This document shows positions 1,462 to 20,857 of a stretch of 20,857 bases of DNA, piece by piece; the stretch's first letter is position 1, and each line of letters starts with the position of its first letter. The DNA comes from a virus. A model generated the notes under the pieces. The model saw only the letters and a program-made list of their open reading frames with translations, was not told the origin of the DNA and searched no databases. Made by a program: the position numbers and the translations under genes. The DNA lies in the IMG/VR virus record IMGVR_UViG_3300020205_002774, positions 1 to 20,857 of that record, one strand, 5' to 3'.

Positions 1462-1628
1462 ACGACATACCGGTAATTGAATGCCAGCACGAAGGGGTCC
1501 AGTTTACTTTCTTGTGCGACCGCTGCGGGAAAAAACATTATCACGGGGAAGGGGAGGGGCATAGGGTTGCTCACTGCCCAGCTTATCCAAATGGTTATAT
1601 TCTGAAAAAGGCGGAGCCTACACAATGA
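1458..1628 (+). CDS. 56-residue Cys/His-rich zinc-ribbon-like protein
   Basis: A short gene read directly from the sequence: ATG at 1458, overlapping the previous stop as ATGA, and TGA at 1626-1628 overlapping the next ATG. The 56-residue product has C9, H11, a C20-D-R-C23 knuckle, H27, H29, H35 and C40, in the pattern F-x-C-x-x-C-G-K-x-H-x-H-G-x-G-x-G-H-R-x-A-H-C. I recognise this pattern from small proteins of phages and bacteria that probably bind zinc; no function is established. AAGGAG at 1444-1449 lies 8 nt before the ATG. The tiling of overlapping starts and stops on both sides makes the gene credible despite its size. Confidence 0.7.
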   Translation: MNDIPVIECQHEGVQFTFLCDRCGKKHYHGEGEGHRVAHCPAYPNGYILKKAEPTQ

Positions 1629-1840
1629 GCGACGACGGCTACTGGTGGGTGCAGGTGTATTGGCGATGCACGAACTGGCAACTAGGGTACATCTACGAGG
1701 ACGGCAGGCCGTCCATCGGGTTTGTCTGTGTAGACGAGGATCAGGACGAACCCCCAGCAGGGGCTAACATCATTGAAGACCTCACGGATAAAGCACTTAA
1801 CGAGCTGAAAGCTGAGTTCTACAAAGTAATGAAAGAGTAA
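1625..1840 (+). CDS. Small acidic hypothetical protein abutting the repeat array
   Basis: An acidic protein of 71 residues with an aromatic N-terminal half (YWWVQVYWR at 6-14) and a helical acidic end. I do not recognise it. Its ATG overlaps the previous TGA, with GCGGAG at 1611-1616 about 8 nt upstream. The stop codon TAA at 1838-1840 supplies the first two bases of the first array repeat (AACGAGTCA starts at 1839). There is therefore no space for a separate promoter between this gene and the array, which suggests read-through transcription from the early operon, unless a promoter lies inside the coding sequence. Confidence 0.65.
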   Translation: MSDDGYWWVQVYWRCTNWQLGYIYEDGRPSIGFVCVDEDQDEPPAGANIIEDLTDKALNELKAEFYKVMKE

Positions 1841-2675
1841 CGAGTCATATGAGGCGAGAAACCCAACTCCCTGAAACGAGTCAGATAAGCGGAGAAAACC
1901 ATCGATATTGAACGAGTCATAGTGATTAAGAAAACCAGAATAAACGAACGAGTCAGACAACTAAAGAAAACCATAAAAGGAGAACGAGTCACTGACGTCA
2001 AGAAAACCATAGCTGCCAAACGAGTCAATCCTGTTTAGGAACCCAAACCATGCAAACGAGTTATAAAAAATAAGAAAACCATTCGATGAAAACGAGTCAA
2101 CAAACTTGAGAAAACCATCTCACGAAAGCGAGTCCCAGCGAGTTAGAAAACCTCACTCACGAAGCGAGTCAAAAGGCCAAAGAAAACCACGCAAGGGGAA
2201 CGAGTCACGAACACCAAGTAAGCCGTAAAAGGAGAACGAGTCAGCCTGTCGAAGAAACCCATATTAAACAAACGAGTCATCGGGGATAAGAAAACCAGCT
2301 TGGTCTAACGAGTCATCGGGGGAAAGAAAACCAATGAGAACAAACGAGTCATCATGCACGAGAAAACCATTCTATGAAAACGAGTCATCGAAACCAAGAA
2401 AACCAGTCAATTTAAACGAGTCAAGTAATTGAAGGAAGCCATAAGTCCCAAACGAGTCATATCAATTTAGAAAACCACATCATCGAAACGAGTCATAACT
2501 GGGAAGAAAACCATAATCTGAAAACGAGTCACGCAAAGATAGAAAACCAGTGATTGCAAACGAGTCAAGTAATTGAAGGAAACCATAAGTCCCAAACGAG
2601 TCATCAAAAAGAAGAAAACCAAACCCACCGAACGAGTCATGATTGTCCAGAAAACCAAAGGTGGAGAACGAGTCA
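1839..2675 (+). repeat. TIGR-type array: 23 dual-spacer 36-bp units plus a terminal half-repeat
   Basis: CGAGTC (or its variant) starts at 1841 and recurs every 36 bp without a single indel to 2669. Each unit is repeat 1 AACGAGTCA, spacer A (9 nt), repeat 2 AGAAAACCA, spacer B (9 nt). Spacers A/B by unit: 1 TATGAGGCG/ACTCCCTGA; 2 GATAAGCGG/TCGATATTG; 3 TAGTGATTA/GAATAAACG; 4 GACAACTAA/TAAAAGGAG; 5 CTGACGTCA/TAGCTGCCA; 6 ATCCTGTTT/AACCATGCA; 7 TAAAAAATA/TTCGATGAA; 8 ACAAACTTG/TCTCACGAA; 9 CAGCGAGTT/CACTCACGA; 10 AAAGGCCAA/CGCAAGGGG; 11 CGAACACCA/TAAAAGGAG; 12 GCCTGTCGA/TATTAAACA; 13 TCGGGGATA/GCTTGGTCT; 14 TCGGGGGAA/ATGAGAACA; 15 TCATGCACG/TTCTATGAA; 16 TCGAAACCA/GTCAATTTA; 17 AGTAATTGA/TAAGTCCCA; 18 TATCAATTT/CATCATCGA; 19 TAACTGGGA/TAATCTGAA; 20 CGCAAAGAT/GTGATTGCA; 21 AGTAATTGA/TAAGTCCCA; 22 TCAAAAAGA/AACCCACCG; 23 TGATTGTCC/AAGGTGGAG. 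The period, two alternating repeats and two spacers per unit match published TIGR arrays (tandem interspaced guide RNA). Confidence 0.9.
1839..2675 (+). ncRNA. Predicted precursor of 36-nt tigRNAs
   Basis: In known TIGR-Tas systems the array transcript is processed to 36-nt guide RNAs. Their repeats form a box C/D-snoRNA-like fold bound by the Nop domain of Tas, and both spacers pair with the DNA target. Here the array lies on the + strand between two + strand genes, so a rightward precursor is the simplest reading; strand is inferred from gene direction, not seen. The conserved blocks AACGAGTCA and AGAAAACCA both contain GA steps that could take part in a kink-turn, but they are not simply complementary to each other, so the fold is inference. 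No promoter was recognised upstream. Confidence 0.7.
2417..2596 (+). repeat. Duplicated array units (unit 17 at 2417-2452 and unit 21 at 2561-2596)
   Basis: Units 17 and 21 carry the same spacer A (AGTAATTGA) and spacer B (TAAGTCCCA) and differ at one base, in repeat 2 (AGGAAGCCA against AGGAAACCA). They share the G at the third base of repeat 2, which is otherwise seen only in unit 6. This marks them as copies of each other, placed exactly four units (144 bp) apart. Confidence 0.9.
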
Positions 2676-2707
2676 AACAACAACTAACTAGAAAAGAGAA
2701 CAACACG

Positions 2708-3574
2708 ATGAGCGATATAAGAACGATGGTACGCGGGGCGTACGACATACAGAAACTGAGAATCCAGATGGGTAACCGCATTGTTGCCAACTGGAAAGCA
2801 AAGCTGGGGCAAGCACCCAGTGCTACAGAGGAGACGCTAGACGCAGCCGAGAAAACTTTGCTAGACGATCTGCGGGATTCCTATAAGAAGTTGGCGGATG
2901 GCGTAGCGACACTACCACGCCAGTCCACGTTCAAGGGCGACGAGCTGATAAGCACCTACACCGAACTTGTTTTGATAGATCAGTACCTGAGCCTCGAAGA
3001 TCAGGAGAACAAACAGTTCAGCCGATTGAAGAACGTGCTCAAAGACTTCCCGGTTTACAACGAGTTTCTGGTAAACGTGTACGGCGTAGGGCCAGCAATG
3101 GCAGGAGTCATTGTGTCGGAGATCGATATCCACGCAGCGCAGTACCCGTCCAGCTTGTGGAAGTACGCGGGGCTCGACGTAGCCGGTGACGGGCATGGGC
3201 GTTCAAAACGTAAAGAGCACCTAGAGGAGTCAACGTACTTAGACAAGGATAAAAAGGAGCAGACGAAGATGGGCATCACGTTCAACCCGTTTCTGAAGAC
3301 CAAGCTAGTCGGTGTTCTGGGTTCATCGTTCCTTAAGCAGAGCGCGGTTAAGTGCCCGTACCGTAAGATATACGACGACTACAAGCACCGCTTGGAGAAC
3401 AGCCCCGCACACGCAGAGAAAAGTAAAGGGCATCGCCACAGCATGGCAGTACGCTACGCAGTAAAAAGATTTCTAGCAGACCTGTACGTTGCATGGCGCA
3501 CCCTCGAAGGATTACCAGTAGCTAACGAGTACAGCGTTGATAAACTGGGTATCGTTCATCGCTTAGCTGCGTGA
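2708..3574 (+). CDS. tas: Tas protein of a TIGR-Tas system (Nop/IS110-like, no nuclease domain)
   Basis: A 288-residue protein. Residues 1-115 are charged and largely helical, probably a coiled coil. Residues 118-156 carry the signature of the IS110-family C-terminal domain (Transposase_20): YGVGPAMAGVIVSEID at 125-140, then SSLWKYAGL at 148-156. A basic GRSKRK stretch (164-169) and a helical C-terminus with RHSMAVRYAVKRFLADLYVAWR follow. IS110 proteins and Tas proteins share this fold with the Nop domain of box C/D snoRNPs, which binds guide RNA. The N-terminal DEDD/RuvC-like catalytic domain of IS110 transposases is absent, and I see no HNH motif, so this would be a nuclease-less Tas. An ATG at 2573 in the same frame exists, but its extra 45 codons are array sequence. 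ATG 2708, 32 bp after the last repeat and with AAGAG at 2694-2698, is the better start. Alternative: a degenerate IS110 transposase, made unlikely by the array. Confidence 0.85.
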   Translation: MSDIRTMVRGAYDIQKLRIQMGNRIVANWKAKLGQAPSATEETLDAAEKTLLDDLRDSYKKLADGVATLPRQSTFKGDELISTYTELVLIDQYLSLEDQENKQFSRLKNVLKDFPVYNEFLVNVYGVGPAMAGVIVSEIDIHAAQYPSSLWKYAGLDVAGDGHGRSKRKEHLEESTYLDKDKKEQTKMGITFNPFLKTKLVGVLGSSFLKQSAVKCPYRKIYDDYKHRLENSPAHAEKSKGHRHSMAVRYAVKRFLADLYVAWRTLEGLPVANEYSVDKLGIVHRLAA

Positions 3575-3666: not shown

Positions 3667-3975
3667 ATGAATGAAAACACAGCGCCCGTGATGTCCGCCA
3701 CGAAAAAGAAGTGGTGGCAGTGGCACCAAGACAACCCACAGGTCTACGAGATGTTTAAGAAGTTTACGTTTCAAGCAGTGGGTCGTAGGCACAAGCGGTT
3801 GAGTGCTTGGCTGATCGTGAACCGAATACGGTGGGAAACAAGCATCGAGACTACAGGCGTAGACTTTAAGATATCGAATAATTTTATTGCGTACTACGCT
3901 CGGCTTTTTATGCTGGACCACCCGCAGTACAAGGACTTTTTTGCTACTAAGAAAATGAAGGACGACGAAGAGTGA
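3667..3975 (+). CDS. Conserved hypothetical phage protein
   Basis: A 102-residue, mostly helical, basic protein. The pattern W-x-x-H-Q-D-N-P-x-V-Y-E-M-F-x-x-F (residues about 16-33), then RLSAWLIVNRIRWE (45-58), DFKISNNF and ARLFMLDHPQYKDFF near the end is one I recognise from many phage and prophage proteins with no assigned role. An in-frame ATG at 3652 exists, but GAGGAG at 3654-3659 lies 7 nt before the ATG at 3667 and overlaps the earlier start, so 3667 is preferred. The TGA overlaps the GTG start of the DNA polymerase gene (GTGA), placing it as the first gene of the replication module. Confidence 0.75.
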   Translation: MNENTAPVMSATKKKWWQWHQDNPQVYEMFKKFTFQAVGRRHKRLSAWLIVNRIRWETSIETTGVDFKISNNFIAYYARLFMLDHPQYKDFFATKKMKDDEE

Positions 3976-5885
3976 AACTAATAGTAGGAGACTTTGAAAC
4001 GTACTGGTCGCAGACACACTCGCTGTCTAAGATGAGTCCCATAGACTACGTGATGCACCCGGATACAGAAGTCATTTCACTGTCCCTCAAGGTAGATGAC
4101 GAGCCGACACGGGTATGGTTTGGCGAAGCGGCCATACGCAAACGCTTACAAGCGCAAGACTGGTCGGATGTGATGTTAGTCGCGCATAACATGTCAGCGT
4201 TTGACGCGATGCTTTTTGCGTGGCGATTTAATGTACAGCCCAAGGTATGGGGGTGCACGCTGGCAATGGCCCGACCCATCCACAGCAAGACCTGCGGGAA
4301 CTCGTTAGCCAAGCTGGTCGAGCACTACGGTCTCGGGGTGAAAGACAACACCGCCCTACTCAACACCAAAGGCAAACACCTGTGCGACTTCACGAACACA
4401 GAACTGCTGGCGATGGAGGGGTACAACCGCGACGACACTGACCAATGCCACGGCCTGTTCCAAGCCCTGAAAAAGCACTACAACGCCGAAGAGCTATGGC
4501 AGATCGACAGCACGATACGGATGCTGGTAGAGCCGAAGTTCATGTTGAGCCGACAGGTACTGGATAAGGCACTCAGCGATGTCAGGATTCAGAAGCAGCA
4601 GGCGTTGGCGCAGATGGCGAGCGTGCTCTACGAGATGGAGGTAGATGACAACCCAGCGGTAGAAGAAGTTGTTCGCAGTAAGTTGGCGTCCACCGCGCAC
4701 TTCAGTAAGCTGCTGCGGGCCAGAGGCGTCCGGGTACCCATGAAGCAGAGCCCATCAAACCCAGAGAAAAGGATACCTGCGCTGTCTAAAACAGACGAAG
4801 CGTTCCTTGCACTGCAGGAGCACGAAGACCCGGTGGTTGCATTGGCAGCGAGCACGCGACTGGACGTTAAGTCAACAATACTGGAGACCCGGCTGGAGTC
4901 GTTCCTTACAACGGGTAAGGCGCTGCGCGGAAGACTGCCGATCCCACTCCATTACTGTGGGGCCGACACAACGGGCCGGTGGTCAGGCTTCATGTACAAC
5001 CCGCAGAACCTGCCGCGCATAGACCCGAGCAAGCCCAAGCTGTCTGACGCGCTGCGTAAGTCGATGGTAGCCCCGCCCGGATACAAGGTAGTGGTAGCCG
5101 ATTTGTCCGGTATTGAGCTGAGAGTTAATCACTTTCTGTGGAAGGTTCCGAGTTCGATGGCGCTGTACCAAGCGTCACCAGACAAGGCCGACCTGTACAA
5201 GGACTTTGCGCACAGGTTGTATAGGGTGGAGCTAGAGGAAGTAACAAAGCCGCAGCGGCAGATAGGCAAGGTCGCGCACTTGGGACTAGGGTTCGGAGCC
5301 GGGGGCGGCGCATTTCAGAAAGTGGCTAAGACCATGGGCGGCATAGACTTGTCGTTAGAAGCAGCCCAAGCGATTACCACGCAGTGGCGTGACGCATACG
5401 AAGACATTGTGCTTGGGTGGCGCAGGTGCCATGAGATGCTACAATTCATAAGTCAGGGAGACCGCTTGACTATTGACCCGTGGGAGTTGATGGAGACATC
5501 TGCAGAGGGCATACACCTGCCATCTGGGCGCGTAATACGTTACCCCCTACTGCGAGAAGAAGTTAATGAAAACGGCCGGAGCGAGTGGGTGTACGGCACT
5601 GGCCGCCACCAAGCGAGAATATACGCGGGTAAGGTGACGGAGAATTGTGTTCAGGCGTTGGCGCGCGACGTCATTGCCGGTAACGCATATCAGATGTACA
5701 AGCAGACTAAGCTGCGCCCGAGTTTGGCAGTGCACGACGAGCTGGTTTACATAGTGCCCGAGAGCGACGCCGTTGCTGCGCTTGAAACGCTGCAAACAAT
5801 AATGCGAACACCTCCAGTCTGGTGGCCGCAGTTGATAACGTGGTCCGAAGGCGACATTGCCGACACCTATGGAGATGCTAAGTGA
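3972..5885 (+). CDS. polA: DNA polymerase, family A, with 3'-5' exonuclease
   Basis: A replicative phage polymerase of 637 residues with no 5'-3' exonuclease domain. The proofreading domain is visible: Exo I DFET (D7, E9), Exo II AHNMSAFDAML (about 72-82), Exo III YNRDD (Y151, D155). The polymerase domain has motif A DLSGIELR with D377, motif B RQIGKVAHLGLGFG with R429 and K433, and motif C VHDE with D589. At the positions equivalent to E. coli Pol I 762 and 766 it has Leu437 and Phe441, where E. coli has Phe and Tyr. Leu at 762 is a known class of viral PolA in environmental phages. The GTG start overlaps the previous TGA, and its own TGA overlaps the next GTG. Identification is firm; the thumb region is shorter than in E. 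coli Pol I. Confidence 0.95.
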   Translation: MKLIVGDFETYWSQTHSLSKMSPIDYVMHPDTEVISLSLKVDDEPTRVWFGEAAIRKRLQAQDWSDVMLVAHNMSAFDAMLFAWRFNVQPKVWGCTLAMARPIHSKTCGNSLAKLVEHYGLGVKDNTALLNTKGKHLCDFTNTELLAMEGYNRDDTDQCHGLFQALKKHYNAEELWQIDSTIRMLVEPKFMLSRQVLDKALSDVRIQKQQALAQMASVLYEMEVDDNPAVEEVVRSKLASTAHFSKLLRARGVRVPMKQSPSNPEKRIPALSKTDEAFLALQEHEDPVVALAASTRLDVKSTILETRLESFLTTGKALRGRLPIPLHYCGADTTGRWSGFMYNPQNLPRIDPSKPKLSDALRKSMVAPPGYKVVVADLSGIELRVNHFLWKVPSSMALYQASPDKADLYKDFAHRLYRVELEEVTKPQRQIGKVAHLGLGFGAGGGAFQKVAKTMGGIDLSLEAAQAITTQWRDAYEDIVLGWRRCHEMLQFISQGDRLTIDPWELMETSAEGIHLPSGRVIRYPLLREEVNENGRSEWVYGTGRHQARIYAGKVTENCVQALARDVIAGNAYQMYKQTKLRPSLAVHDELVYIVPESDAVAALETLQTIMRTPPVWWPQLITWSEGDIADTYGDAK

Positions 5886-13035: not shown

Positions 13036-13239
13036 ATGGATTTGGCCCCCGATGGTTTACGCATGGTGGTGAACTGGAAGACCTTTGATCCCGGGTGTTC
13101 TGTGTTCGTCCCCTGCCTCGATATGGTGGAAGCCGTTTCTCAATTTTATGAGATCGCACAGCGCAAGGGCTGGCTGTGCGACCACCGGTACCGGATAGAA
13201 AATAAACTGCAGGGGGTTCGGTTCTGGAGACTGGCCTAA
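13036..13239 (+). CDS. Small phage protein
   Basis: A 67-residue protein. FDPGCSVFVPCLD (16-28) and GVRFWRLA at the end resemble a small phage protein family of unknown function in which W-x-x-x-x-x-G-x-S-V-F-V-P is followed by a V-R-F-W-R end. A longer reading from ATG 12979 would overlap the end of the primase gene; ATG 13036, after a G-rich stretch with GGGGGGTGG, is preferred. Its TAA overlaps the stop of the opposite-strand virion gene by 4 bp, so this is the last gene of the rightward module. Confidence 0.6.
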   Translation: MDLAPDGLRMVVNWKTFDPGCSVFVPCLDMVEAVSQFYEIAQRKGWLCDHRYRIENKLQGVRFWRLA

Positions 13240-16200
13240 AACCCCCAGTCTTCCGCACGCTCTAGGGTATTGCCGCGCATTCTCTCGTCCGGCAATCTAC
13301 CCCTAATCATTTTCTGCGTGTTGTTGTCCCTGCCTTTAATGGACTGGCGCAAGCCATCGGAAGTCATACCAAACTCTGGATAGCGCGCGTTAAACTCAAT
13401 TATCTTCTCTATCGCCTGCGCAACGCCACCGGTATCTCCAACGCGGTACGCAACGTAGACCGCTTCGTAAAGCCCGGTTCGCTTGGTTTTTATTCTGCGC
13501 TCGGCGTTAGAGTCCCCGACATTAAAGTCCATGGTTCTAGCGTAATCGGCCGGGGCAAACCCAAGCGCTTGTGACAGCGCGCCGAAGGGAGTGACCTCCG
13601 TAACGACATCGCCCCGCATCGTCTCAACAGCACCTTCTGTTAAGAACCGCGCGGACTTGAACAAGTTAGAGAACGACGCGGGCAACATACTTTCTACCCC
13701 ACGCTGGATATCCCCGTCTGCGATTAACCCGGCGCCGCGATACGCCCTGCTAACCGACCCATATGCAGGCCCGCCAAAGTGGGCGGCAACAATGTCAGCC
13801 AACGTCGCATCGTTCGGCAAGTTAGAGTCGCGGATCAAGAGATTGGTCATCTCCATTCGCCCTGCGACGTTAGCGTTGAAGAGCAGGTTGGGTATGCCCT
13901 CAACCAGTATCGGATCGAGGTGCGTGCGCAGGAAGTTTTCCAGCGAGTTGTCTTCGTCTTCTTCCCCAAAGAGCGCCCCGTACATTGCCCACAACCCGGC
14001 GACGGCACCCATCATCGGCATACCTTTTACCCCAACCATCGCCGCAGAAGTTAGCATGGTGTACGCAGCAAACTTGCGAGCTGCAGCCTTCACTTCCGGG
14101 TCGTCATTCATGGTGGCGTCATAGGCTGTCTTTGTTTGCAAGTACATCTGCAGCGCCGCAAACCGGCGGTACATGAACGCTATACGCGCAACGTCTTGCT
14201 GTTGGAACCGAGCGCCTGTTACTGCGGTTGATCCTCCGTTGAGCAGCAAACTCATGTCCATAGCCTTTTGAGCAGCGGCCTCCATTTGTTCCGGTGTCGG
14301 GTTGGCCCCTAGCGTTGACAACTCCAAGTCGTACGCGGTCTTTAATCCGATCTCTCGTTTGAAGCGCTCACTGGCGTTCATCATGAACCCCATTCGTGCT
14401 GACCACTTAGACAAGGGGTTACTTTCGCCAAACTCCGCCGATTCAGCCAGCTCAGAGTACCGCTCGGAGTGACCGGCCTCGCGCACCTTATCTACTAACG
14501 GTTTAAGATAGCCGTACTTTTTCTGCTGCGCCGGGTCGTTAAAGTCTATGTTGAGCACGGAAGGCAGCGTTTTTCTGCGCACCGTGTCCCTCCCCTTTGT
14601 CCCCAGTGTCTGCAGCACTTCTTGCAGCGCGGCGCCTTCCAGACCTTGGGTTACCAACGTCTCCACATCTGCTGACGTGCCCATGCCCAGTATGTCTTTT
14701 GCAGCGGCCATCATCACCCGGTGAGTCTTTGCAAACCCGTAGGTTCTTGTCAGGTACGGGCCGGTGACGAGCACGAGTGAGGACATATCCACGATGGCTG
14801 AAGAGACGTTAAACCCCAACGTCCACCCATAGGTGCCAGTTGTGAACAGGTTTGACCACCAGCTTTGACTTGGGTTGGCAGAGTACTTAGCCCGCTTGGC
14901 AATGTCATCTACGATAGAGACTACCGTCGCGTCATTTCCCATGTTTTCGCGCGTGGCCTTCATGTTCTCAACTTCTTTGTTAAGCTGCGCGCCGTACTCC
15001 ATGTTAATCAGCTTTCGGCCGAGCCCTATCGTGCCTTCTTGAAACGCCCAGAACGGGTCACGTATATACCCTGCAACTTCTTTACGTGAAGCAAGGCGCT
15101 CCAGTACCGAATTGGACGGGGACATAGCAACCCCCAGAGCCATAACGGATTCAATCAACGCCGTTTTGGCGTCGCCATCTTCGACCTTGCTCTCTTTGAG
15201 GGTGGTTATAAGCTGCCCAAGGAAACTGGAAGGCACGACCCCATCAAAGGCACGAAGGTCACCGCCTATGAACGGCTTGATGTCTTTGTCACTAATACCC
15301 TCTTCAAGGAGCTGCTGCCTGCGCGCTGCTTGGTCGTTGGGGTTTGTGAATATCTCAAACGCCGGTTCGCCGTTTTTCTGGACGTACTTCAGCATGTGCT
15401 TACCGCTCGGACGCAGCATCGGCGCGTAGCCTTCAAGGGGCCCCTTCTCCCGCATCTGCTTAACAAACTCGTTTTGAATCCGAGTTGCCATCGCTTTGTC
15501 TTGGGTTGCATCGTACACGCGGTTGAACACTTGCTGAGAAATCTGCTTAAACTGTCGATTGTGGATTACGCGCATCTGCCTATAGATAGCCTGCCCTGCT
15601 GGGCCAATGGCATCGTATTGCTTCTTCAGTTTGCGGTACGCGGTAAGTTTCTCCGGGTTCCCTACGTATTCGCTTTCAGGCTTGGTCAAGTCCACCCGAG
15701 CGTGAGACCCCCCAAAGTACAAGTCTGTCATGGCCGCGTACTTATCCGCATTCTTTAATTTCCACTCCCCCATCCGGGTAATCTGTGCAGTGATACCATC
15801 AGTAAACTGCTTCATTGCACCTTCAAACTTAACAGCGGTTTCTGTGTAACGCTTCATGGCGTCGGCAAATAGCGCGTACGCAGGACCCTTGGTCCTAATG
15901 TACGACTGCACGTAATCGTTTAGTGCGGGGAGCGGAAGTCCCCACGTCAGCACAGTACGCGCGGCGTTACCTGCCGCAGAGCCCGTTGACGTGCCCATCA
16001 CCTTGGCTACAGCATCACGCACGGGCTTTGACCGCATGGGTTTAGACGTGGAGTTGAGCTGAGCGCCCTGCACATTCAGGAAGCGGTTGTTGGCCGTAGG
16101 AGACGGGTCGGTGAGAGCCTGCTCGGCTGCCTTTTGAGTTCTTGTGGTGTTTTCAGCCTTGCCCATACGCTTTGTCAGGTCAAGAAGCTCCTCCACCGTG

Positions 16201-19200
16201 CCGGACTTAGCCGCCGGTAGGCCAACAACACGGCGTATGGCGTCAACAAATCGACCCCACCAGTTTTGCCGTTTGAGGAGGCTTCGGAACTTTGGATTTG
16301 TTATGCCTTCGGCAACAAACTCGTAGGGGTTTTCAAAGCCGTACGCATCAGACTCCGGGTGCTGCCCCGTGTACTGTTCAAACAACCGCACTATTCGCTT
16401 GCCTTCAGGGGTGCCCCGGGCAATAGCGTTGACTGTCATGGGGTGCACAAACTCGTGCACAAAAGTCTGTGCAACCGATTCGGCTCGCGGGTCCAGATAG
16501 ATCGCCTCGTCGCCTTTAGACGGGTGCACGTACTCGCCAACTTCATCCACTGCCTCAAACCTTTTACTGAACACAGGCACATTGATATCCGGCGCAGCTC
16601 GCAGCATCGCAGCGGCCATGTCTCGCAGGTCTTGCGGCAAGTCTTTATCTTTTATGATGGCACGCAGTATCTGCGCCGGTGTCGCCCCCTCCTCAACTAG
16701 CTGCATAATGCGCTTGTTGGCTGGGATATCCGCAGCTTCTTCGCGCTTGGGTTGGACGGCGTTAAACTTGCCGGGTAGCGCAATCTCGCTGCGCCCTTGG
16801 TCGCTGGCGTATTCGTTGTAGATGTCAACTTGTTTGGGCAACGGGAGCTGCGAGATCGCCCCTGCCGCATCACCAGTGGGTGCCTTCCCCATAACCCTTT
16901 GAAACGCTTGCGCAAGTTGGGCTTTATTCGCGCCACCAATCGCGCGAGTGAGTTTCGTTCTAAACGCTTGCTCTTCTTTTGCCACCGGCGTAGTTGACTC
17001 AACAGCGGGTTCAACGACGGGCTTAGCAGTTTTAACGGCCTCTAGCACCCGGTCAACGTCCCGCATTGCCAAATCAAGTTTTAAGTGCAGTTGCGCTGGA
17101 AATGGCCTGATCTCGCCAGATGCAATGCCTTCGCGTGCCATAGCCACCACAGAGTCAAATGGGGCAAAACTGCCATTACCCATTTGAACGTCCCCCGGCT
17201 TCTCGTCTTTTTGTGACAGGGACAGCAGTTCTTTTTCTGCTTCGCTGCGACCGTCGCCGATTGATGTAAATTTTGATGGCCGCACGGGCTCGACAACTGA
17301 TTCACCCGGCGACTCTCCGAGCAACTGCTCAATAAACTTGTCGGTTTCGGTTTTGGGGGCAGCGGGCGTTTCAACTGCTGTGGATACAGGCACTTTGTCC
17401 TGTTCCGCTTTAATAATCTCGGCGGCTCGGGCTTTTTCAAGTGCAGTTTCCATCAGCGCTTGATCCCGCGCATCTTGTCTAGGCTTGGCCCGTTTTATAT
17501 TTTCACGCGCCTTGGCAAGAACTTCGGTTTCCGTTAGCAAGGGCACAGAGATACTATCTGCAAGGGCAGTAACTGACGCAGCAACATCCGGGGCGACCCC
17601 GGGAGCTGCAGCATACGTAGTCAACTCTGCTTTAGCCTTCGCGGGGGTCTTGCTCTTCGCCACGCGCTTTGTGACGGGTGCACCTTTTGGCACCCCAGCA
17701 GCAACAAGCTCGGCTTCGGTCGGCGGAGTGAAATCCAACTGTAACTGTTCCTGCTCTTGAGAGTCCGCCGCTTTCGCATCTTCGTCCCGTAATGCCAGAT
17801 CGTTTTCTTCCCTTGCTTGTTGTCTAGCCATGGTTTCAGCGACCCTCGGGGCGTCGCTTGTTGCTGCCTCAAGTTCAGCCGGGAAAAGATCACCGGCGTC
17901 CCGTTGCTGCTGCGCTTGTTCTTGCGCGGCTCGTGCTTCATCTGCGCGCGCTCTGGCAATAGCGTCGTTTAAGGTCATCTGCCCTGCCGCTTCTTGCTCG
18001 TTCCGCGTTGCTGCTGGAGGCATAGGCTGCGCAGCGTTACGCTCTTCCGCAGTCGTAGACGGGGTCGGTACTGGACCGGATACCGGTGCTTCTGCGGTAT
18101 CAAACAACTCTTGCTGTTCAGGGGCACGCGTAACGGTCGACGCTTTGGCCATGGCGTCGACAATGGTTTTAATATCAAACGGTTTTGCCGCAACTTCCAG
18201 CTTACCCATTTCATCTAAGAACGCATTGGGAGATGCCGCGTTGAGCGGCTGCCGCATACGCACAGCTCCATTAGGGTCAACTAGCTCACTAAACAGCTTG
18301 CCGCTGGGCTCTTGCACAAGGCGCATAACGCCGTTCTCGCCGCCACCAGTCATAGAGACAGGGATGTTTACTGTACGCAATGGAGGCGCAGGGGGTGCGG
18401 GCGGGGCTTGTTCTTCTCCCGCTGCAGGGGGCGGGGTTACACCGGCCGAACGGTCTCGAATACCGAGTTCGACTATGGCGGCGACAAGGCCGCCTACGCC
18501 AGCGCCAAGACCCAGCGATTCTCCCGTATTAGTAAAGGTACCCTGCTCGGGGTCGTATATCCCCTGCGCAATCAAGTTCTGCGCGATCTCACTGGCAGCT
18601 TCCTGCAGACCTTCTTCTGTAGCCGATACGCCTACACGGCCCATTCGGCTTGCTATATTTGTAGCGAGTTTTGGCCCAGCCGCTTTTTCCAACCCTTTTA
18701 CTACACCTTCAGCAGGCTTTCTCAGACGGCTCAGTATCCGAGCAGGAGCCACCATTTCTGCTGCGCCGGGGAGAATGCCAAGTGCAGTTGCTTGAGCACG
18801 TTCTTCTCCAGTTGCACCTGCTTGTTCTGCACGAGTTCTTGCCGTACCTGCGCCGGAAGCGGAACCAAGTGCAACGCCACTGGCGACGCGAGCCGCTACG
18901 CCGGGTAGACCGCCCGTCAATACAAACGGAACTGTTGAACCTAAAGCCTCACCCACTGTACCCGCCAAGCTATCTTCATAACCGGCTTTGGGCTGGAACG
19001 AGGACGCCGCGCTCTCGGCTGCGCCAGAAATCAAATCGCGCAGGTACGCCTCTTCTTCATCAGGCAGCATTGCACTGGCCCCGATACCGGCAGTCTCCAG
19101 CAGCCCGATGGCCCCGCGAGGAATACCGCGAAAGAACTCCCCCGCTTGGCCCATGAGCGTGCGCTCTACAGGTTCTTGCTCCGGCGGCTGAACTTGACCT

Positions 19201-19301
19201 TGTAACTGCCGAACAAGATTGGCCAACTTGGCAGCCGCTGCGGTATCCCCCGCGTCGTGGGCATTTTTAAAAGCGGTTATTGCACGCTGCAAGTCGGCCA
19301 T
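13236..19301 (-). CDS. Giant virion-type polyvalent protein with HEFVH metallopeptidase motif
   Basis: A protein of about 2021 residues, probably packaged in the virion and delivered with the DNA, as large internal or polyvalent phage proteins are. The first 290 residues include Gly/Ala-rich hydrophobic segments (such as VPFVLTGGLPGVAARVASGVALG). Residues about 300-900 are low-complexity, Ala/Pro/Glu/Lys-rich linkers. A zinc peptidase core follows: HEFVH at 949-953, then NPYEFVAEG at 991-999 that could give the third ligand. The C-terminal 1000 residues are mostly helical with hydrophobic runs near the end (TMLTSAAMVGVKGMPMMGAVAGLWAMYGALFG) and resemble large polyvalent protein-associated domains. 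A TTG at 19307 is possible, but ATG 19301 has AGGA about 8 nt upstream and is preferred. The gene lies 4 bp downstream of the neighbouring virion gene, so the two are co-transcribed. Confidence 0.82.
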   Translation of the reverse strand: MADLQRAITAFKNAHDAGDTAAAAKLANLVRQLQGQVQPPEQEPVERTLMGQAGEFFRGIPRGAIGLLETAGIGASAMLPDEEEAYLRDLISGAAESAASSFQPKAGYEDSLAGTVGEALGSTVPFVLTGGLPGVAARVASGVALGSASGAGTARTRAEQAGATGEERAQATALGILPGAAEMVAPARILSRLRKPAEGVVKGLEKAAGPKLATNIASRMGRVGVSATEEGLQEAASEIAQNLIAQGIYDPEQGTFTNTGESLGLGAGVGGLVAAIVELGIRDRSAGVTPPPAAGEEQAPPAPPAPPLRTVNIPVSMTGGGENGVMRLVQEPSGKLFSELVDPNGAVRMRQPLNAASPNAFLDEMGKLEVAAKPFDIKTIVDAMAKASTVTRAPEQQELFDTAEAPVSGPVPTPSTTAEERNAAQPMPPAATRNEQEAAGQMTLNDAIARARADEARAAQEQAQQQRDAGDLFPAELEAATSDAPRVAETMARQQAREENDLALRDEDAKAADSQEQEQLQLDFTPPTEAELVAAGVPKGAPVTKRVAKSKTPAKAKAELTTYAAAPGVAPDVAASVTALADSISVPLLTETEVLAKARENIKRAKPRQDARDQALMETALEKARAAEIIKAEQDKVPVSTAVETPAAPKTETDKFIEQLLGESPGESVVEPVRPSKFTSIGDGRSEAEKELLSLSQKDEKPGDVQMGNGSFAPFDSVVAMAREGIASGEIRPFPAQLHLKLDLAMRDVDRVLEAVKTAKPVVEPAVESTTPVAKEEQAFRTKLTRAIGGANKAQLAQAFQRVMGKAPTGDAAGAISQLPLPKQVDIYNEYASDQGRSEIALPGKFNAVQPKREEAADIPANKRIMQLVEEGATPAQILRAIIKDKDLPQDLRDMAAAMLRAAPDINVPVFSKRFEAVDEVGEYVHPSKGDEAIYLDPRAESVAQTFVHEFVHPMTVNAIARGTPEGKRIVRLFEQYTGQHPESDAYGFENPYEFVAEGITNPKFRSLLKRQNWWGRFVDAIRRVVGLPAAKSGTVEELLDLTKRMGKAENTTRTQKAAEQALTDPSPTANNRFLNVQGAQLNSTSKPMRSKPVRDAVAKVMGTSTGSAAGNAARTVLTWGLPLPALNDYVQSYIRTKGPAYALFADAMKRYTETAVKFEGAMKQFTDGITAQITRMGEWKLKNADKYAAMTDLYFGGSHARVDLTKPESEYVGNPEKLTAYRKLKKQYDAIGPAGQAIYRQMRVIHNRQFKQISQQVFNRVYDATQDKAMATRIQNEFVKQMREKGPLEGYAPMLRPSGKHMLKYVQKNGEPAFEIFTNPNDQAARRQQLLEEGISDKDIKPFIGGDLRAFDGVVPSSFLGQLITTLKESKVEDGDAKTALIESVMALGVAMSPSNSVLERLASRKEVAGYIRDPFWAFQEGTIGLGRKLINMEYGAQLNKEVENMKATRENMGNDATVVSIVDDIAKRAKYSANPSQSWWSNLFTTGTYGWTLGFNVSSAIVDMSSLVLVTGPYLTRTYGFAKTHRVMMAAAKDILGMGTSADVETLVTQGLEGAALQEVLQTLGTKGRDTVRRKTLPSVLNIDFNDPAQQKKYGYLKPLVDKVREAGHSERYSELAESAEFGESNPLSKWSARMGFMMNASERFKREIGLKTAYDLELSTLGANPTPEQMEAAAQKAMDMSLLLNGGSTAVTGARFQQQDVARIAFMYRRFAALQMYLQTKTAYDATMNDDPEVKAAARKFAAYTMLTSAAMVGVKGMPMMGAVAGLWAMYGALFGEEDEDNSLENFLRTHLDPILVEGIPNLLFNANVAGRMEMTNLLIRDSNLPNDATLADIVAAHFGGPAYGSVSRAYRGAGLIADGDIQRGVESMLPASFSNLFKSARFLTEGAVETMRGDVVTEVTPFGALSQALGFAPADYARTMDFNVGDSNAERRIKTKRTGLYEAVYVAYRVGDTGGVAQAIEKIIEFNARYPEFGMTSDGLRQSIKGRDNNTQKMIRGRLPDERMRGNTLERAEDWGF

Positions 19302-19311
19302 TATCAAGTTC

Positions 19312-20857
19312 CTACGGAGTAGAGTACTGGTCCAAAAGGGACTGCGTTTCTGCGTCTACGGGTGACGCGGTTCCACCCGCAGCGTTGAGCACTTCTTGCA
19401 CGGCGGCAGCTAGGGTTTTTGTACCGGTAAGATCATCCGCTACTATACGCTGGGCAATTGTCAAAACCTGCTGCGGGGTCATGCTATTTCTGACAGCAGC
19501 CTCATTTACGGCAGCTTCTAGTGCCGCAGTCCGCTCGGCACTAAGACCTTCACGGGTCAGCGTCTGCCTCATCTCCTCGATGGTCATCTCCTGCTTCAAC
19601 CTAGCTGTGTCTTGATCCAAAGCCGCAAGAGCTCGCAGCTCATTGCTGTGAATCTCTGCCGCAGCCTGCTCGGCTTCAAACTGCCCAATACCCAGAGCAC
19701 GCAGCTCATTGATTGTTTTGTCCATGTCCGCAATAACTCGCTGCTGCGCAGTGTCACGTTCCCCGGCAATAATTTCCTCTTCCCCGGCAATTCCAGAGCT
19801 AAATCCGCCAAATCCTCTACTAGCGAGACCCGCAAGACCTGCTCGCAGCAAGCGGCTGCGCTCTTGTTCAGGGCTAAACCGTGCTTCTTGAAGCGCACGC
19901 AGGCGATCTTGTTCAACCCTGCGCTCTCTAATCGCATCCTCCATTCCGGTCAGTTCGCGGTAGCGCGAGCCTGCGTCCGTTGAACCGACAGTCCCTTCAA
20001 CTCTTGCGCGCAGTTGGCTCTCCGCGGTGTTCGTTGGGGCAGCGGCAGGTGCAGCGTTGGAAGCAGCGGCACGGGCAGCGGTGGGAGCAGCGACACCCAC
20101 GTTCCTGTCGGGCCGCTGGTCTACCCCTCGCATTCTGAACTCTGGTTGTGCCCGCTGTGAATCAATACCCACGCCAAACATACTGGGTTGCTGGGCAGTG
20201 GGGGTAGCTGCTGCTGGTTCATCTCCTTCACCCCCAAACATATTTGACAGCGCTAAACCACCACCGCCAATAACGGCTCGCCCCGCTGGAGTCATTGCCG
20301 CCTTTGCACCACGGTACATCATCGGAAGCGCGCGCGTAAGTGCGGTACCCGCGACGCCAAGCGGGGCTCCTAGCCCAGAGGCAGTAAGCGCCATTAACCC
20401 GGCGTCTACTGGGTTTTCTTGGATATACTCCGCCGTGTCAAAAATGGCTTGCCCCTTACCGCTGCGCGGGGTGTTGAGCATCGATTCTATTTCTGCATCT
20501 GTCATATAGCCAAACCGCCTTGCGGGCTCGCTTGCAGGGGATGGTGCACGTGGTATGGGCCCCTCTTGCGCACTCTCCCTTCGAGCTACGGCGTCTTCAA
20601 GTTGTGCCGCTAAGTCTTCTCTCCCCGGGACCGGGGACGGGAGGGTCGGTGTGGGTCTCTGCGCTACTCCATTTCTGCTGGGACGGGCTTCGGCAATAGC
20701 TATGACTCGCGCAGTTTCTGGGGGGACGCCCGCGTCTACTAACTCACTTTCCCTTCGGGCTACTGCGTCTGCGTATGCGGCGTCAAAGTCTTCTCTCCCC
20801 GGGACCGGGAACGGGAGGGTCGGCGTAGGTCTCTGCGCTATTCCATTTCTGCTGGGG
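19312..20857 (-). CDS. Partial virion-type protein; 5' end beyond the window
   Basis: The reading frame is open without a stop from 19312 to the right edge, so at least 514 residues are present and the true start is outside. The methionine at 20505 is internal: upstream codons continue a repeated sequence. The visible N-terminal 117 residues hold two 58-residue repeats containing P-S-R-N-G-x-A-Q-R-P-T-P-T-L-P and D-A-V-A-R-R-E-S. The middle is Ala/Pro/Thr-rich with Gly-rich hydrophobic segments, and the last 230 residues are long charged helices typical of coiled coils. This suggests an internal virion or DNA-injection protein, inferred from composition and from the position beside the giant protein; no named family is recognised. 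Confidence 0.7.
   Translation of the reverse strand, partial: PSRNGIAQRPTPTLPFPVPGREDFDAAYADAVARRESELVDAGVPPETARVIAIAEARPSRNGVAQRPTPTLPSPVPGREDLAAQLEDAVARRESAQEGPIPRAPSPASEPARRFGYMTDAEIESMLNTPRSGKGQAIFDTAEYIQENPVDAGLMALTASGLGAPLGVAGTALTRALPMMYRGAKAAMTPAGRAVIGGGGLALSNMFGGEGDEPAAATPTAQQPSMFGVGIDSQRAQPEFRMRGVDQRPDRNVGVAAPTAARAAASNAAPAAAPTNTAESQLRARVEGTVGSTDAGSRYRELTGMEDAIRERRVEQDRLRALQEARFSPEQERSRLLRAGLAGLASRGFGGFSSGIAGEEEIIAGERDTAQQRVIADMDKTINELRALGIGQFEAEQAAAEIHSNELRALAALDQDTARLKQEMTIEEMRQTLTREGLSAERTAALEAAVNEAAVRNSMTPQQVLTIAQRIVADDLTGTKTLAAAVQEVLNAAGGTASPVDAETQSLLDQYSTP
20571..20857 (-). repeat. 174-bp direct repeat coding for 58-residue units
   Basis: TCTTCTCTCCCCGGGACCGG starts at 20615 and again at 20789, 174 bp apart, followed by near-identical sequence to the window edge. 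The similarity also extends upstream (20571 onward against 20745 onward). 174 is 58 codons, so the frame is kept. More copies may lie outside the window. Confidence 0.8.

Follow-up and report, generated by a model that had tools for sequence, protein, structure and literature searches.

A phage-borne TIGR-Tas locus with a 36-bp dual-spacer array and a nuclease-free TasA protein

The DNA analysed here, referred to as the window, is the whole of a 20,857-nucleotide stretch of a virus record (IMG/VR record IMGVR_UViG_3300020205_002774, positions 1 to 20,857). It comes from an environmental phage and carries a TIGR-Tas system of a kind already published in 2025 (Faure et al., PMC12045711), in which a tandem array with two different repeats and two spacers per unit lies next to tasA, the gene of a Nop-domain protein devoid of nuclease. 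An earlier sequence-only reading had called the locus phage-borne, and this agrees with the genes of the virus record, which include a phage DNA polymerase, an exonuclease, a helicase and DUF927. TIGR-Tas is a programmable machine that targets both strands of DNA. Its natural targets, the origin of its spacers and the function of TasA were listed as open by its discoverers (PMC12045711). In the lineage of the window, the two spacers obey a common rule, arrays turn over fast, scans for self-targets gave no excess, and one specific candidate target emerged.

1839 to 2675, plus strand: TIGR array of 23 full 36-bp units and a terminal edge repeat, defined by register, lag-36 periodicity and unit parsing
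2708 to 3574, plus strand: tasA, encoding a 288-amino-acid nuclease-free Nop-domain Tas protein, described by its sequence, fold and relatives

Array and protein of the window

TIGR-Tas loci of the dual-repeat type alternate two distinct repeats of 8-12 nt with spacers of ~9 nt, next to the gene (PMC12045711). Every unit of the window array comprises an edge repeat AACGAGTCA, spacer A, a loop repeat AGAAAACCA and spacer B, each 9 bp long, and the same layout is found in relatives. The 23 units recognised from the sequence alone are consecutive and in perfect 36-bp register (1839-2666), and a 24th edge repeat AACGAGTCA occupies 2667-2675. Over these units, 12 of the 36 columns are invariant, six are nearly invariant and all 18 spacer columns are variable. 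The edge repeat is AGCGAGTC instead of AACGAGTCA in two units and the loop repeat AGAAAACCA shows minor variants; both repeats read A-R-...-Y-C-A. The self-match of the array amounts to 70% at lag 36 and at most 42% at other lags, and Tandem Repeats Finder reports period 36 and its multiples. No Rfam family was found in the window. One tigRNA, the guide RNA expected from a unit, occurs twice as the result of a duplication within the array and has homologues in the relatives L002 and L004. Another unit also has a homologue in L004.

2415 to 2450, plus strand: tigRNA unit AGTAATTGA / TAAGTCCCA, first copy
2559 to 2594, plus strand: tigRNA unit AGTAATTGA / TAAGTCCCA, second copy, 144 bp downstream of the first
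2091 to 2126, plus strand: tigRNA unit ACAAACTTG / TCTCACGAA, homologous to unit 6 of L004 (ATAAGCTTG / CTTCACGAA)

The tasA gene starts with the ATG at 2708, 32 bp past the last edge repeat, which is the distance first described. However, the IS110 Transposase_20 signature then put forward as evidence is weak: it is the only Pfam match of the protein, C-terminal and below the curated cut-off (E 0.023), and no nuclease domain is matched. The firm evidence for the family lies in the matches to TasR and TasH. Among solved structures, phmmer retrieves TasR (9mty, E 7.9e-12) and TasH (21kl, E 5.4e-9), and a profile built from 17 relatives reaches TasR at 1.2e-24, TasH at 6.9e-17 and IS621 only at 0.61. 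Furthermore, the AlphaFold model (predicted local distance difference test 78.8, predicted template-modelling score 0.74) ranks TasH (Z 19.7) and TasR (Z 17.8) highest, aligned over nearly the whole length. They are followed by the recombinases IS621 and ISCro4 (Z 12.6-13.0) and then by Prp31 and Nop5 (Z 6-7). Profile and structure comparisons with Tas, Nop5 and IS110 proteins consequently place an RNA-binding fold of the Nop/IS110 type in the Tas clade. Together with the dual-repeat arrays at homologues, this bears out the TIGR-Tas identity proposed for the locus.

Residue 1 of the model aligns to residue 68 of TasH (match 68-301), to residue 111 of TasR (match 111-302) and to residue 128 of IS621 and ISCro4. 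The protein thus starts past the nuclease domains of TasR and TasH. The nuclease is missing, and the protein is a TasA, a solo Nop domain without RuvC or HNH nuclease.

The closest solved fold belongs to TIGR-TasH of Salicola phage CGphi29 (SpTIGR; PMC12045711; PDB 21kl, 9w04), which is also phage-borne with a 36-bp period. Its repeats are near-identical to those of the window (edge AGCGAG[C/T]CA versus AACGAGTCA, loop AGACAACCA versus AGA[A/C]AACCA). In contrast to the window, the Salicola protein has an N-terminal HNH nuclease, and its array follows the gene instead of preceding it and is accompanied by a terminator. The Salicola spacers are mostly of 8 nt with an extra, mostly constant A per repeat, whereas in the window this position is a variable and coupled ninth spacer base. 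FpTIGR of Flavonifractor plautii, a TIGR-TasA system of a different lineage, likewise combines a solo Nop protein with 36-nt units holding two 9-nt spacers, a likeness drawn from its description and not from repeat or protein sequences (PMC12045711). TasR of a Thermoproteota archaeon (PDB 9mty) has the Nop domain with coiled coil and the two-strand spacer logic in common with the window, but carries a RuvC nuclease at its N terminus (about residues 1-110) and cuts DNA.

More remote systems share only parts of this organisation. The IS110-family recombinases IS621 and ISCro4, guided by a bridge RNA, have the RNA-binding fold in common with the window protein, but possess a catalytic N-terminal DEDD/RuvC-like domain and a single guide RNA per element, with no array. 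Nop5, Nop58 and Prp31 of the box C/D small nucleolar ribonucleoproteins display the Nop-domain fold and box C/D-like symmetric repeats. However, they belong to RNA-modification or splicing machinery with K-turn proteins, and no such tandem array accompanies them. CRISPR-Cas systems contain a single repeat of ~25-36 nt, spacers of similar length and cas genes, in contrast to the two 9-nt repeats and 9-nt spacers per unit seen here; no cas gene was found among the window proteins searched.

Relatives, covariation and spacer coupling

Several dozen relatives were collected from IMG/VR by searching once with the protein and scanning twice for the repeat pattern. Where the flanks are intact, arrays of the same two repeats with 36-bp period stand beside the homologues, as the earlier reading had anticipated, either upstream or downstream of tasA. 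Both repeats and their register are kept next to tas genes of 57-97% identity. In many relatives, polA, exonuclease or SNF2 genes neighbour the module and share its strand.

Base pairs within the edge repeat have been published for TIGR-Tas (PMC12045711). In the window lineage, edge pair 2-7 is A-T in 379 of 461 units and G-T in 63 of 461, edge pair 3-6 is C-G in 453 of 461 edges, and loop pair 2-7 is G-C in 440 of 461 units. Three contigs from metagenome-assembled genomes (MAGs) encode Tas proteins 57-60% identical to that of the window, and their array edges read AGCGAG[T/C]CA or AGCGTGCCA. Edge pair 2-7 is G-C in L234 and L236, whose Tas proteins fall in this range, and pair 3-6 stays C-G in the distant MAG arrays. 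The edge repeat of the MAG homologues therefore shows compensatory changes (A-T to G-C at 2-7), as the published pairs predict.

Two side observations concern the layout of relatives. On L084 (297-1088, a contig shared with L049), a highly divergent Tas, 27% identical and with an internal gap, adjoins an array with the same edge and loop repeats, which suggests that Tas lineages have swapped arrays or proteins. In L044, L045 and L055, a detached repeat unit precedes tasA and the main array follows it (1370-bp gap), which suggests that the gene can be flanked by arrays on either side.

The two spacers of a tigRNA are coupled at their ninth bases (A9 and B9). The test set covered 476 distinct tigRNAs from 36 non-redundant arrays of one TasA clade. 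Both ninth bases are pyrimidines in seven tigRNAs where 28 are expected (Fisher p=2e-8), a T at one position is accompanied by an A at the other in 80-90% of cases, and the association stands at a chi-square z of 14.9 against within-array permutations. Across the edge repeat, the avoidance of two pyrimidines is absent (33 observed, 27 expected), and none is seen between neighbouring units either; among the other symmetric spacer positions none is strongly coupled. As the coupling spans the loop repeat and not the edge repeat, it points to spacer A, loop and spacer B as the functional unit, as in tigRNAs, and indirectly supports cutting within the edge repeat. All 22 cleanly parsed units of the window obey the rule, which is new: the founding paper reports no obvious covariation between spacers (PMC12045711). 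Published cleavage leaves 8-nt 3′ overhangs (PMC12045711), from which a target geometry was derived that reads spacer A and then spacer B as its reverse complement, rc(B); in this geometry A9 and B9 meet at the target centre. The rule may stem from assembly of the ribonucleoprotein or from the target DNA. An agreement of A and rc(B) in codon frame (z 3.1-3.9), considered as a sign of coding targets, was rejected: it is due entirely to A9/B9 and drops to z=0.8 when these are masked.

Turnover of the arrays is fast. L027 and L042, whose tas DNA is 98% identical, hold 13 and 14 units and have no tigRNA in common, so that complete turnover is possible at this level of identity, which is a new observation. 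Other close tas pairs have half of their tigRNAs in common. The window and its closest relative (tas DNA 94% identical) have one distant tigRNA homologue in common. Internal duplications and point variants are also present in the arrays of the lineage.

Proposed action, rival readings and targets

We consider it likely that the locus is a phage-borne TIGR-TasA system which binds under RNA guidance and blocks without cutting, with targets most likely outside its own lineage. The array would be read on the plus strand, probably as one unit with tasA and the replication genes. By homology, the transcript would be cut inside every edge repeat, releasing about 23 tigRNAs of 36 nt. Each tigRNA is expected to bind a symmetric TasA dimer, in which one protomer would contact the loop repeat, held shut by its 2-7 pair, and its partner would contact the halves of the edge repeat, where pairs 2-7 and 3-6 form the closure. 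Spacers A and B, 9 nt each, would base-pair with a single uninterrupted target of ~18 bp, each on a different strand, with their last bases meeting at its centre. As TasA has no nuclease domain, binding and blocking are expected instead of cutting; judged from its anatomy and its homology with TasR and TasH, the protein most likely binds and sharply bends its target, blocking replication or transcription there. The targets most likely belong to rival phages, or to other mobile DNA found in that host.

A more specific version is possible, though we regard it as doubtful. TasA might be an inter-phage weapon, whose spacers pick conserved replication-gene motifs of rivals (for instance LRGHSSL in a RepA-like primase-helicase) and follow synonymous codon changes. 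Its arrays would be rewritten much faster than the protein, and the last spacer bases would form a coupled centre requiring at least one purine.

Several results weigh against guided blocking of foreign DNA as we propose it. No target was found for any of the window's own tigRNAs. For the duplicated AGTAATTGA / TAAGTCCCA, a rival DNA polymerase was considered and rejected: its 32 matches are close to chance, include no polymerase and lie mostly outside long open frames. The candidate target described below belongs to a tigRNA of relatives' arrays rather than the window's, and chance alone is estimated to give about four matches in that scan. The A9-B9 rule is absent in the distant L234, where both ninth bases are pyrimidines in 4 of 12 cases, and is thus lineage-specific. 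Lastly, a rho-independent terminator after the array is typical, although not defining, for TIGR-Tas (PMC12045711), and no terminator-like site was found on the plus strand between 1400 and 4000, the array running into tasA.

A genuine TIGR-TasA could instead serve the phage itself, through regulation of host or phage genes, aid to integration by DNA bending, or segregation. The founding paper lists such roles for TasA, including a ParB-linked subset (PMC12045711), many relatives have the module on the strand that also carries polA, exonuclease and SNF2 genes, and host genomes lay outside the target scans. We nevertheless judge this somewhat improbable, as searches of window genes detected neither an integrase nor ParB, close relatives differ in nearly all of their spacers, which is hard to square with conserved regulation, and self-targets do not exceed controls. 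For the latter, 514 tigRNAs were compared with 620 kb of lineage DNA at gaps of 0-6, and A followed by rc(B) showed no excess over permuted spacer pairs; an earlier scan of 427 tigRNAs in four geometries likewise gave none. Readings which deny a TIGR system fare far worse. An RNA-guided transposase of the IS110 type with a repeat-rich non-coding region would fit the weak Transposase_20 match, the transposase label of the protein's PHROG family and the fold similarity to IS621 and ISCro4. It is very improbable given the absence of the N-terminal catalytic domain, the much closer TasR and TasH in both sequence and fold, and the single bridge RNA of IS110 elements in place of 23 dual-spacer units. 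Even less credible is a tandem repeat with a protein-coding or structural role and no connection to the gene. In its favour, 36 is divisible by three and stretches of the array are open in minus-strand frames, but half of the 36 positions are free to change, the edge pairs covary, and repeats and register persist beside divergent tas genes on either side.

Outside the lineage, guided blocking has one concrete candidate target. The tigRNA TAGAGGTCA/AGCGAACTA, common to several arrays, matches two contigs at a single site in a phage primase-helicase (AAA_25), with 18 of 18 positions at gap 0, in codons for LRGHSSL; on L089 the site occupies 1590-1607. The peptide is identical at all 77 sites detected in related phages, a count for which the search pattern fixed part of the peptide. 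Natural variants of the tigRNA mostly encode the same residues (AGA/CGA/CGT, CTN/TTN), and one variant differs. One target contig comes from IMG sample 3300021961, and three arrays of its tigRNA family come from the adjacent samples 3300021960 and 3300021962. That this site of another phage group is the natural target is plausible from the sequence match, yet falls short of probable. Other genes of the helicase-bearing phages showed no clear excess of matches beyond the helicase tigRNA family.

Two further candidates were rejected. All 20 matches of ACAAACTTG/TCTCACGAA keep the predicted KLVRE frame but fall in about ten unrelated genes, and do not define a single target. For the A-H-x-A-Y-C tigRNA family, three of the nine families hit by its 11 matches are in the predicted frame (including FolE-like and terminase-like ones), which is near chance. 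Synonymous tracking across homologous tigRNA pairs gave p=0.005 for the combined spacing and p=0.03 for codon permutation at one gap only, both post hoc. An independent replicate comprised five pairs only, and the effect is not established.

Cultured phages and neighbouring features

TIGR-like loci are also present in phages which offer direct access to the biology of the system. In the Microcystis phage Mvi-JY20, the TasA-like gene is followed by an array of about nine dual-repeat units (edge ATGCGAGCC, loop ACGAAACCC) and then by a terminator-like hairpin with a T run; by its sequence, this appears to be an intact-looking TIGR-TasA locus in an isolate phage. With this TasA as query, tblastn hits to Tas-like genes came from 76 phages of Mycobacterium and from viruses of Gordonia, Rhodococcus and Acidianus. 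The main text of the founding paper mentions none of these genera (PMC12045711). In four cultured actinobacteriophages, CCA-N9-CG...CCCA-N9-CG units with palindromic flanking stems lie beside the Tas-like gene. They resemble the published stem-loop TIGR arrays (PMC12045711) and would place TIGR-like arrays in phages that are in culture and whose hosts are known. Three A followed by rc(B) queries from these stem-loop units gave chance 16-mers or nothing against known phages.

L238, 2261 to 3340: locus of Microcystis phage Mvi-JY20 (PP438412), with a 241-amino-acid TasA-like gene annotated as hypothetical
L239 to L242: Mycobacterium phages Rich and Francis47, Gordonia phage Morrissey and Rhodococcus phage Peregrin, with Tas-like genes annotated as hypothetical or transposase

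Two neighbours of the module in the window are given for context only. The open reading frame (ORF) before the array leaves no gap to it and is not conserved with the module.

1625 to 1840, plus strand: ORF of 71 amino acids, whose TAA stop runs two bases into the array
3972 to 5885, plus strand: family A DNA polymerase, the start of a same-strand replication block (polA, exonuclease, SNF2 helicase)

Elsewhere in the window, a 2023-amino-acid ORF on the minus strand (13236-19307) faces the replication block and probably encodes a large polyvalent or virion protein. A 24-bp tandem repeat of 2.7 copies (20032-20096) lies inside an alanine-rich minus-strand ORF.
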